DNA of 64,000 nt from Anaeromyxobacter soli (lineage in GTDB: Bacteria; Myxococcota; Myxococcia; Myxococcales; Anaeromyxobacteraceae), in contig NZ_JAKZLF010000009.1 of NCBI RefSeq assembly GCF_022808855.1, positions 66,195 through 130,194 on the forward strand, written 5' to 3'. This document shows positions 18,878 through 48,790 of this stretch, piece by piece (positions within the stretch are counted from its first letter, which is position 1; every line of letters starts with the position of its first letter). Under the pieces are notes generated by a model, which ran no database searches, was not told the DNA's origin, and saw only the letters and a list, made by a program, of their open reading frames with translations. The translations under genes and the position numbers were made by a program.

Positions 18878-18918
18878 CGCGCGAACGCCGCCCGTGAGTC
18901 GCGGGCGGCGTTCGCGCG
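18878..18918 (-). terminator. 17-bp perfect hairpin after the DUF2269-like gene
   Basis: Positions 18878-18894 pair perfectly with 18902-18918 across a 7-nt loop. It lies 65-105 bp beyond the stop of the membrane-protein gene at 18983, in a 378-bp gap before the OmpW-like start. No T run follows, so it may act with Rho or protect the messenger end. The rest of the gap holds the promoter and enhancer-like site listed separately. Confidence 0.6.
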
Positions 18919-45261: not shown

Positions 45262-46659
45262 GTGACGCCCGCCGTAAGCCCGCTCCGCGCGGAGGTCTCC
45301 GCGCTCGTTCGACTCGCCGTCCCGCTCGCGATCGCCCAGGGCGGACAGGCGCTCATGGGCGTCGTGGACACCGCGGTCGTGGGGCGGGCGGGCCCCCTGC
45401 CCCTCGCCGGTGTCGGCCTGGGCAACGTGCTGTTCATGGCGCTGTCCGTGCTGGGGATGGGGGTCATGCAGGGCCTCGATCCCCTCATCGCGCAGGCGCT
45501 CGGCGCGGGGGACGACGCCCGCGCGCGCCGCCTCCTCTGGCAGGGGACCTGGCTCGCCCTCGCCCTCTCCGCGGCCCTCGCCGTCCCGTTCCTGCTCGCG
45601 CCTGCGGCGCTCGAGCCGCTCGGGATCGACGCGGACGTCGCGCGAGAGGGGGGGCGCTACCTCGTGTGGCGGCTGCCGGGGCTGCCGTTCTTCCTGCTCT
45701 ACTTCTCGGGCCGCGCCTACCTCCAGGCGCACGGCGTGGTCCGGCCGATGGTCGTCGCGACGGTGCTCGCGAACCTCCTCAACGTCCCCGCCGACGTGCT
45801 CCTCGTGTTCGGCGGCGCAGGGCTCCCCGCCGTGGCCGGCCCGCTCCGCGCCATCCCGCCGCTCGGCGCCGCGGGGGCGGCGATCGCGACGAGCCTCTGC
45901 GCGGTCGCCCAGGCCGCCCTGCTCGCGCTCGCCGTTCGCGGCGTGCCGCGGCCGCCGGGGCGCGTCGCCCGCGCGCCGGACGGCCCCGCGCTCCGGGCGG
46001 CCCTCGCGGTCGGGCTCCCCGTCGGCCTGCACATGGGCGCGGAGGTCGGCATCTTCGCGCTCGTCGGCTTCCTCGCCGGCCGGTTCGGCGCGCTCCCGCT
46101 CGCGGCGCACCAGCTCGCCATCTCCATCGCGAGCCTCACGTTCACCGTCGCGATCGGCTTCGGCAACGCCGGCTCCGTGCGCGTGGGCTGGGCGGTGGGC
46201 CGTCGCGATCGCGCGGGCGCGCGCCGGGCGGGCCTCGCCGCGTTCGGCTCGGGGGCCGCGTTCATGTCGCTCTCCGGGCTCGTCTTCTTCCTCTTCCCCG
46301 GGCCCATCGCTCGGGCGATGACCGACGACCCCGCGCTCGTCGCGGCCGCGGTGCCGCTGTTGCGCATCGCCGCGCTGTTCCAGCTCTCCGACGGCATCCA
46401 GGGCGTCGGCGCCGGCGTGCTGCGCGGCGCGGGCGAGACCCGCTTCGCGTTCGCCGCGAACCTGGTCGGCCACTGGGCGCTCGGCTTCCCCGCGACCGTG
46501 CTGCTCGGGTTCACCCTCGGGCTGGGCGTCACCGGGCTGTGGTGGGGCTTCGTCCTCGGGCTCACCGCCGTGGCGGTGGGCCTCTACGCGCGCTTCCTCC
46601 GCGTCTCCGCGCGCGAGATCGTGCCCCTCGCCGACCGGGCGGCCGTCGAGGCGGGCTGA
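45262..46659 (+). CDS. MATE-family efflux transporter (DinF/NorM-like)
   Basis: Inner-membrane cation-coupled exporter of 465 aa with about 12 helices and internal twofold repeats. The first helix block VRLAVPLAIAQGGQALMGVVDTAVVGR and the LFMALSVLGMGVMQGLDPLIAQALGAG stretch are typical of MatE domains. GTG 45262 is the start; no strong ribosome site. The 277 bp upstream, divergent from kup, show no element I can name. Substrate unknown. Confidence 0.93.
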   Translation: MTPAVSPLRAEVSALVRLAVPLAIAQGGQALMGVVDTAVVGRAGPLPLAGVGLGNVLFMALSVLGMGVMQGLDPLIAQALGAGDDARARRLLWQGTWLALALSAALAVPFLLAPAALEPLGIDADVAREGGRYLVWRLPGLPFFLLYFSGRAYLQAHGVVRPMVVATVLANLLNVPADVLLVFGGAGLPAVAGPLRAIPPLGAAGAAIATSLCAVAQAALLALAVRGVPRPPGRVARAPDGPALRAALAVGLPVGLHMGAEVGIFALVGFLAGRFGALPLAAHQLAISIASLTFTVAIGFGNAGSVRVGWAVGRRDRAGARRAGLAAFGSGAAFMSLSGLVFFLFPGPIARAMTDDPALVAAAVPLLRIAALFQLSDGIQGVGAGVLRGAGETRFAFAANLVGHWALGFPATVLLGFTLGLGVTGLWWGFVLGLTAVAVGLYARFLRVSAREIVPLADRAAVEAG

Positions 46660-46707
46660 CCCGCGCGGACCCGGCGCCGGCGCGTGCGGAGGCTAAGCTC
46701 CCCCGGG

Positions 46708-47142
46708 ATGCGCCTCTCGCTGCCGCAGCCGTACGAGGACCTCGGCCACACGGCCGACGTGGGGGTGCGCACCCGCGGCGCCACGGCGGAGGAGGCGCTC
46801 GCGCGGCTCGTCCTCGCGTTCGCGGCGCTCGCGGCGGGCGGCGCCGCCGTCGCGGCCGAGCGGGAGGAGCGCGTCGCGGTGGAGGGTGGGCCGGGCCTCG
46901 CGGGCAGCGCCGTGGCGCTGCTGCGCGAGCTCCTGTACCGGCTGGCGACCGAGGCGCTCGTCCCGGCGGCCTGCGAGGTGCTGCGGGTGGACGCGGCGGG
47001 GACGGAGGCGGTCGTCGCCTTCGGCCGGCGCGATCCGGTGCTGCACGCGGAGGGCGCGGATCTGAAGGCGGTCACCTGGCACGCGGCGCGGCTCGAGCGC
47101 GAGGGTGCGGGGTGGGTGGCGCAGGCGGTCTTCGATATATGA
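46708..47142 (+). CDS. Archease
   Basis: Cofactor protein that activates the RNA ligase RtcB, 144 aa. The N-terminal sequence YEDLGHTADVGVRTRGATAEEAL contains the metal-binding Asp-His region of the family, and the C-terminal LKAVTWHAARLEREG...AVFDI matches the conserved end. ATG 46708 is preferred to an upstream start at 46684 by alignment to the family start. It is followed after 208 bp by rtcB on the same strand, the known functional partner. Confidence 0.95.
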   Translation: MRLSLPQPYEDLGHTADVGVRTRGATAEEALARLVLAFAALAAGGAAVAAEREERVAVEGGPGLAGSAVALLRELLYRLATEALVPAACEVLRVDAAGTEAVVAFGRRDPVLHAEGADLKAVTWHAARLEREGAGWVAQAVFDI

Positions 47143-47298
47143 CGGGGGCTGCGCCCCCGCCCCGCCGACGGCTGGCCGCCGTCGTCGGGGCCCCACCCCT
47201 GCTCGGCGGGGCCCGTGAACGGTCGCGCCCGCTTCGCGGGTTCGCGACCGTTCCCCGCCGGGAGGGACTGCGTCCCTCCCCGTCGCTTCGCGACGGGG
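47143..47298 (+). repeat. Array of consecutive hairpins between archease and rtcB
   Basis: At least five strong hairpins follow one another: 47143-47159 (7-bp stem, TGC loop); 47166-47184 (7 bp, 5-nt loop); 47217-47253 (11 bp plus 5 bp with a two-base bulge, TTC loop); 47260-47280 (9 bp, TGC loop); 47278-47298 (9 bp, TTC loop, sharing 3 bases with the previous one). A weaker one lies near 47187-47215. Repeated TGC and TTC triloops suggest a related set. It could be REP-like DNA, an mRNA leader structure or a processing/substrate site; no known RNA family is recognised. Confidence 0.75.
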
Positions 47299-47350
47299 CC
47301 CCTCCCTGGGGACCATCGCGAACCTCGAACTCTCGTCTGGCGAGGAACGA

Positions 47351-48790
47351 ATGAAGCTCCGGCGCATCGAGGGCGACCTGTGGGAGATCCCGCGCGAAGG
47401 GCGCATGCGCGTGCCGGGCCGGGTCTACAGCGTCGGGCCGCCGGCGCCGGACGACCCCGCGCTCCAGCAGGTCGCGAACGTCGCGCACCTGCCCGGCATC
47501 CTCCGCTTCTCGCTGGCGATGCCGGACATCCACTGGGGATACGGGTTCCCCATCGGCGGCGTGGCGGCGATGGACGCCGAGCACGGCGCCGTGTCGCCGG
47601 GCGGCGTGGGCTACGACATCAACTGCGGCGTGCGGGTCCTCACCACCGCCCTCGAGGCGGAGGACGTCCGCCCGCGGCTGCACGCGGTCACCGCCCAGCT
47701 CTACCGCGACATCCCCACCGGCGTGGGGGCTAAGAGCGCCATCCCGCGGCTCTCGGACGACGCGCTCGACGAGGTCCTCGCGGGCGGCGCTCGCTGGGCG
47801 GTCCGGCGCGGGTTCGCCGCGGCGAGCGACGACGCCGAGCGCTGCGAGGAGGGCGGCCGGCTCTCCGGCGCCGATCCGTCGGCCGTCAGCGCGCGAGCGC
47901 GGACGCGCGGCGCGGATCAGCTCGGCACGCTCGGGAGCGGGAACCACTTCCTGGAGGTGGACCGGATCGCCGAGGTGTACGACCCGGTGGTCGCCGAGGC
48001 GTTCGGGCTCGTCCCGGGCCGGGTGGCGATCCAGATCCACACCGGCTCGCGCGGCCTCGGCTACCAGGTCTGCGACGAGTTCGTCGCCGAGATCGCCGCG
48101 CGGCGCGGCGAGTTCGGGGAGGACTACGCGACCCTCCCCGATCCGCAGCTCGCCGCCGCGCCGATCGCGAGCGCGCTCGGCCAGCGCTACCTCGGCGCGA
48201 TGCAGGCCGCCGCGAACTTCGCCTGGGCGAACCGCCAGGTGATGACCGGCCTCGCCGTGCGCGCGCTCCTCCACGCCCTCGCGATCTCGGAGCGCGAGCT
48301 CGGCGCCCGCGTCCTCTACGACGTCTGCCACAACGTCGCGAAGCTCGAGGAGCACGCGGTCGACGGGGTCGTCCGGCGGGTCCTCGTGCACCGCAAGGGG
48401 GCGACGCGCTGCTTCGGGCCCGGCGATCCCCGCGTGCCGGCGCCCTACCGCGCCGCCGGCCAGCCGGTGCTCATCCCGGGCGACATGGGCCGCTACTCCT
48501 ACGTCCTCGCGGGGACCGCGCGGGCGATGGCCGACACCTTCGGCAGCTCGTGCCACGGCGCAGGCCGGCTCATGTCGCGCGGGGAGGCGCTCCGGCGCGG
48601 GCGCGGGCGCTCCATCGCGCGCGAGCTCGCCGCGCGGGGCATCGAGGTCATCGCGCGCGGGAAGAAGACCCTCGCCGAGGAGATGAGCGAGGCCTACAAG
48701 GACGTGGCGCAGGTCGTGGCGGTCATGGACGGCGCGGGGATCTCGCGCCTCGTCGCCCGGCTCGAGCCGATGGGTGTGATCAAGGGCTGA
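47351..48790 (+). CDS. rtcB: RNA-splicing ligase RtcB
   Basis: GTP-dependent ligase joining 2',3'-cyclic phosphate or 3'-phosphate and 5'-hydroxyl RNA ends, 479 aa, cytosolic. Metal ligands are in YDINCGVR (Asp89, Cys92) and the GSGNHFLEV block, and the guanylylated histidine is in SSCHGAGR (His402). The GGVAAMD and PIGG segments are also conserved. The archease gene lies upstream on the same strand, but the two are separated by a hairpin-rich leader, which may control rtcB separately. Likely role: repair of cleaved tRNA or other RNA under stress. Confidence 0.97.
   Translation: MKLRRIEGDLWEIPREGRMRVPGRVYSVGPPAPDDPALQQVANVAHLPGILRFSLAMPDIHWGYGFPIGGVAAMDAEHGAVSPGGVGYDINCGVRVLTTALEAEDVRPRLHAVTAQLYRDIPTGVGAKSAIPRLSDDALDEVLAGGARWAVRRGFAAASDDAERCEEGGRLSGADPSAVSARARTRGADQLGTLGSGNHFLEVDRIAEVYDPVVAEAFGLVPGRVAIQIHTGSRGLGYQVCDEFVAEIAARRGEFGEDYATLPDPQLAAAPIASALGQRYLGAMQAAANFAWANRQVMTGLAVRALLHALAISERELGARVLYDVCHNVAKLEEHAVDGVVRRVLVHRKGATRCFGPGDPRVPAPYRAAGQPVLIPGDMGRYSYVLAGTARAMADTFGSSCHGAGRLMSRGEALRRGRGRSIARELAARGIEVIARGKKTLAEEMSEAYKDVAQVVAVMDGAGISRLVARLEPMGVIKG

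Follow-up and report, generated by a model that had tools for sequence, protein, structure and literature searches.

A five-stem repeat behind the archease stop codon belongs to a dispersed and very probably mobile family in Anaeromyxobacteraceae

The archease-rtcB gap and its hairpins

The stretch of Anaeromyxobacter soli DNA analysed here (64,000 nt, referred to as the window) carries an archease gene (Pfam PF01951, E 5e-24) followed in the same direction by rtcB (Pfam PF01139, E 8.5e-161), whose product is 95% identical to the RtcB of A. terrae. The two genes are separated by a gap of 208 nt with a predicted fold of -132.2 kcal/mol, compared to -109.6 for shuffled sequence, and none of 200 dinucleotide shuffles was as stable (z = -4.61 for the gap MFE). 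This value, and the exact stems located within the gap, confirm the five strong hairpins with TGC and TTC triloops that had been described there in a first-pass annotation. The same annotation had the hairpins filling all 208 bp, which holds for 47143-47306 and fails for the last ~44 nt (47307-47350), since these are a unique spacer carrying the rtcB Shine-Dalgarno sequence. The features are as follows:

46684..47142, + strand: archease gene, its TGA (47140-47142) directly 5' of the repeat
47143..47306, + strand: whole repeat copy of the A subfamily, 164 nt, defined by a BLAST family of ~40 copies, a covariance model and a multiple alignment
47143..47159, + strand: hairpin H1, CGGGGGC-TGC-GCCCCCG, with a TGC loop; 97% of cells paired, double changes at 3 of 6 pairs
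47160..47190, + strand: hairpin H2, a GC-rich stem variable in length and loop; double changes at 5 of 10 pairs
47191..47203, + strand: CCCCACCCCTGCT, where conservation among the unpaired parts of the repeat family is highest; near-invariant alignment columns
47204..47260, + strand: hairpin H3, a long composite stem; its outer arm is 47204-47210/47254-47260, its inner arm 47217-47227/47243-47253, and its apical part, 47228-47240, carries a TTC triloop; double changes at 7 of 11 inner pairs, CG/GC swaps in the outer pairs
47261..47279, + strand: hairpin H4, GGAGGGAC-TGC-GTCCCTCC, with an exact stem mapped at 47260-47280
47278..47298, + strand: hairpin H5, CCCCGTCGC-TTC-GCGACGGGG, an exact stem, then the conserved 3' end CCCCTCCC
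47351..48790, + strand: rtcB, its Shine-Dalgarno sequence GAGGAA (47342-47347) outside the repeat

H1 begins 0 nt from the archease stop codon TGA, and the copy as a whole matches the covariance model of the repeat family with 121 bits over model positions 1-157. Its 3' end lies near 47306, with two more nucleotides (TG) possible, and the rtcB Shine-Dalgarno sequence follows 35 nt 3' of the repeat end. A covariance model search found no second copy within the 64-kb window. Rfam covariance models gave no match at the gathering cut-off and a single sub-threshold chance match; no intrinsic terminator (a GC hairpin followed by a T run) was detected in 46600-47500, and no sigma-70 promoter in the archease-rtcB gap. 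Elsewhere in the window, about 180 nt downstream of a tRNA-Gly gene, an inverted repeat (18878-18918) has perfect 17-bp arms and a 7-nt loop.

A dispersed repeat with a constrained fold

Searching the A. soli genome with the hairpin stretch (BLAST) returned ~40 separate places at about 79-98% identity, and a covariance model was built from 35 copies. As taken from search-tool matches, the genome holds 39-44 copies (44 by the covariance model), several lying at the ends of contigs, where repeats that break an assembly are expected. The model further counted 61, 48, 43, 27, 18, 16 and 13 copies in seven well-covered congeners; two other genera of Anaeromyxobacteraceae gave 22 and 7. Copies were present in 16 of 24 genomes of this family, and in a sample of 193 Myxococcota genomes, searched under strict filters, none was found outside it. 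Units are 142-169 nt long and have five stems; a 98%-identical copy lies behind the end of an unrelated gene in one congener (G008), and some copies form tandem arrays (L250, L252 and L136, with periods of about 175, 208 and 160 nt). A REP-like repeat family, the last of the alternatives in the first-pass annotation, was the right one, with ~44 copies behind unrelated genes in this genome. In the open papers searched, neither this repeat family nor its five-stem architecture nor so strong a stop-codon preference appears to have been described: text searches of these, which do not cover subscription papers, found no earlier account for Anaeromyxobacter.

In relatives, the archease-rtcB gap looks different. 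A. terrae and G008 have just CGGGGGCTGCGC, a 12-nt remnant, after the archease stop, G005 has a 24-nt remnant, and the other relatives examined show no trace of the repeat in this gap. Orthologous sites of other copies were empty, filled or occupied by internal-deletion remnants, and filled/empty pairs break at the stop codon or just behind it; in the clearest case, that of L112 and its empty orthologue in G000, the stop is unchanged and the insert, which begins TGATCTCACGGGG, follows it after 5 nt. Dispersed near-identical copies were found together with presence and absence at orthologous sites, as in MITE-like elements. The A subfamily showed no clear TIR or target-site duplication. The 3' junctions of the repeats are inexact, because the species compared have diverged in their intergenic DNA.

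Several copies depart from the whole unit. In internal-deletion remnants (L297 and L300 in G006, L031 in A. terrae and L352 in the A. soli genome), the 5' part of H1 runs directly into the 3' part of H4/H5, a product that slippage between the similar hairpins would be expected to leave, and other remnants have kept H1 alone. Two shorter variants, L124 and L125 (from position 1501), pair the usual H1-H2 head with a different tail (GGAAACGGCC...CATGCTCGGCCGTTTAGG in L125), so that the element looks modular.

Covariation was assessed on a MAFFT alignment of the 35 copies, not fitted to structure, using a hand-drawn structure of 47 pairs. Standard pairs occupy 91% of the cells of this structure, and compensatory double changes occur at 22 of the 47 pairs (151 cells), some of them plain by eye (GAACGGT/ACCGTTC, GAACCTG/CAGGTTC, GAGCCCG/CGGGCTC). 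The covariation score was 0.250; shuffling the columns gave 0.094 and sliding the partners 0.045-0.058. Over the slid versions the hand-drawn structure is favoured, being partly derived from the same sequences. Because the stems change in a compensatory way across the 35 copies, the fold is constrained. Covariation, which the first-pass annotation would have sought in the rtcB leaders of relatives, was found across dispersed copies and not at those leaders. The constraint could reflect a resident RNA function instead of mobility. G-U pairs occupy 24 of 1468 paired cells (1.6%), the arms being almost perfect Watson-Crick palindromes; this scarcity hints at a single-stranded DNA substrate or at repair within palindromes, with high GC also lowering G-U.

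Position behind stop codons

The position of the repeat relative to genes was analysed in 152 copies, 141 of which were classed by their upstream neighbour and 125 retained after later tandem-array members were dropped, with genes called by a simple GC-by-codon-position filter. In all, 74 of the 125 first-in-array copies (59%) follow a co-directional gene at a distance of -1 to 13 nt from its stop codon, whereas 4.1% of intergenic points drawn at random lie within 15 nt after such a stop (binomial 2e-68, taking copies as independent, though orthologues from sister species each entered the count, and using a random-point null that ignores selection against insertion near promoters). When the null was restricted to points behind co-directional genes, 7.4% was expected. 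The A. soli genome alone has 21 of 31 first-in-array copies within 15 nt of a co-directional stop. The repeat is oriented with its 5' end towards the upstream gene, and the upstream neighbour is on the opposite strand for 29 of the 141 classed copies. The first-pass annotation had counted the scattering of these hairpins over random intergenic sites, with no conservation at rtcB in relatives, as evidence against its proposals; the copies are indeed scattered and not conserved at rtcB, but their sites are non-random, being mostly stop codons.

Ten further copies start 60-75 nt after a stop, six of them with an extra hairpin beginning at the stop codon. In these B-type copies (L151, L149, L143, L125, L124 and L226), the extra 60-nt hairpin lies upstream of H1, its 5' arm running from the stop codon, with which some of these hairpins in part pair, and the end of its 3' arm matches the stop type exactly in 3 of 6 (TAA with TTA, TGA with TCA).

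The 5' flank of the unit has a loose consensus, TGATCTNA, and 63 of 74 copies have an A immediately before the unit. The stop trinucleotide is unlike that of every empty orthologue in 8 of 20 filled/empty comparisons, a tally that may include normal stop-codon turnover, and the changed stops, as tallied by eye, are mostly TGA-TCNNA-element versus TAG at the empty site. These changes are no more than suggestive of an element that supplies a stop codon. We tentatively consider a mobile element that is aimed at stop codons and brings its own with its 5' end (TGATCTNA), in which case the host gene would keep its frame and gain a folded 3' end, though this is less likely than not.

Origin, possible effects and known systems

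The stretch 47143-47306 is very probably one copy of a non-autonomous mobile structured repeat of Anaeromyxobacteraceae that inserts at or just behind stop codons. The most likely agent is an enzyme acting in trans, which would recognise the repeat in folded, single-stranded form as well as a short AT-containing target and move the strand there. In a genome of 74% GC, such targets would be rare outside stop codons, and insertions inside genes, or harmful ones, would be lost; we propose that the stop-codon bias arises because AT-containing targets concentrate at stop codons and harmful insertions disappear.

An unlikelier reading is that of a functional 3'-UTR module, which spreads by transposition, is positioned by selection and shields the 3' end of the preceding gene's mRNA or affects ribosomes at termination. 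The sense orientation, the spacing of 0-13 nt behind stop codons and the constrained fold would all suit such a module, as would the stalling of ribosomes at stop-proximal REPs of E. coli (those within 15 nt), which PMC12306157 relates from earlier work. However, the orthologues in sister species mostly lack the element, which is therefore not needed at those genes, remnants and internal deletions are common, and the scarcity of G-U pairs, to which high GC also contributes, hints at DNA palindromes rather than RNA.

Under the mobile-repeat reading too, hairpins resident in the archease 3' UTR and the archease-rtcB gap may make the upstream mRNA more stable at its end or hold back translation or transcription there; by analogy with the E. 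coli REPs, the copy behind the archease TGA could lower archease output or provide a stabilised mRNA end, and an effect on archease or rtcB expression is, we infer, possible.

As to the mobilising enzyme, none was found at the loci and copy flanks examined, and it is doubtful that the RAYT-like Y1 transposases of these genomes move the repeats, in a REP-like system with a much longer unit. RAYT-like genes do occur in 22 of the 24 genomes of the family, with 4-14 per well-covered Anaeromyxobacter genome; across 17 genomes, more such genes go with more repeat copies (Spearman 0.66), a correlation that is absent within the genus (-0.15). Furthermore, all RAYT matches but one fall below the family cut-off, the unit is ~4 times the length of a REP and lacks a fixed GTAG foot, and no convincing copy flanks any of 30 examined RAYT-like loci, which gave weak chance-like matches only and no match to head or tail queries. 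No extended, gene-bearing form in which head and tail are separated was found within 1.5 kb of copies, and the head-tail gaps there were tandem or neighbouring copies. In G000, two different RAYT-like genes (L204 and L186) have an identical ~124-nt upstream stretch from the contig start (G000:C45:1-126 and G000:C21:1-126).

A cis-regulator of rtcB, be it a leader, an attenuator or an RtcB-processed RNA, is highly improbable and largely refuted by the relatives: the hairpins sit between archease and rtcB in the same direction and fold very stably, but dozens of copies lie behind unrelated genes, the hairpins are not conserved upstream of rtcB in relatives, the rtcB Shine-Dalgarno sequence is outside the structure and no terminator or promoter pattern was found. 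Control of rtcB translation by the hairpins and their cutting and rejoining by RtcB, both put forward in the first-pass annotation, are left without support, since the same structure recurs behind unrelated genes (~44 copies) and is absent from the archease-rtcB gap of relatives or reduced there to 12-24 nt. The hairpin cluster decorates the end of archease and is no switch for RtcB.

Bacteria commonly carry small structured repeats, whose rules of insertion and effects are for the most part unclear. A repeat family that lands on stop codons in one orientation, and for which sequenced species offer many orthologous sites, filled as well as empty, allows two old questions to be tested: how such repeats choose their targets, and whether the expression of a gene changes when a hairpin directly follows its stop codon.

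Among known systems, integron attC sites are likewise structured DNA that folds as a single strand and directly follows the stop codon of a gene. The Anaeromyxobacter repeats differ from these in being dispersed outside cassette arrays, the archease host gene is resident and syntenic, and no GTTRRRY core of attC was seen in the repeat by eye. With the REP/BIME elements of enterobacteria and pseudomonads they share dispersed palindromic intergenic copies in large number, often close behind stops, and tandem arrays. REPs are single hairpins of 20-40 bp with a GTAG foot that often flank a RAYT gene (PMC3733652), whereas the Anaeromyxobacter repeat combines five stems in one oriented unit of 150-165 nt, with no fixed GTAG and no flanking RAYT at the examined loci. 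We therefore rejected a GTAG/CGTC-tagged REP, the five-stem unit of 142-169 nt being no 20-40 bp palindrome and the loose TGATCTNA no tetranucleotide foot. Stop adjacency also differs, at 59% of first-in-array copies versus about 11% of the E. coli REPs predicted by RepRanger, counted within 15 nt of a stop codon (PMC12306157); an earlier study, as cited there, placed 260 of 496 E. coli REPs within this distance.

Closer in length is bcr1 of the Bacillus cereus group, of 147-167 bp and with a predicted common structure (PMC2267715). Both bcr1 and the pneumococcal BOX are intergenic and of a similar size class to the Anaeromyxobacter repeat, but their hosts are unrelated to Anaeromyxobacter. 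To our knowledge, stop-codon targeting has not been described for either. The mobile enterobacterial repeats ERIC (RU-1) and RU-2 (127-168 bp) are similar in length and can also meet a gene's stop codon, one having fused to a gene's 3' end and removed the normal stop (PMC2759123); in contrast to such occasional fusions, a place at the stop codon, in sense orientation, is the common rule for the Anaeromyxobacter repeat. By kind, this repeat belongs with the REP, BOX, bcr1 and ERIC repeats.
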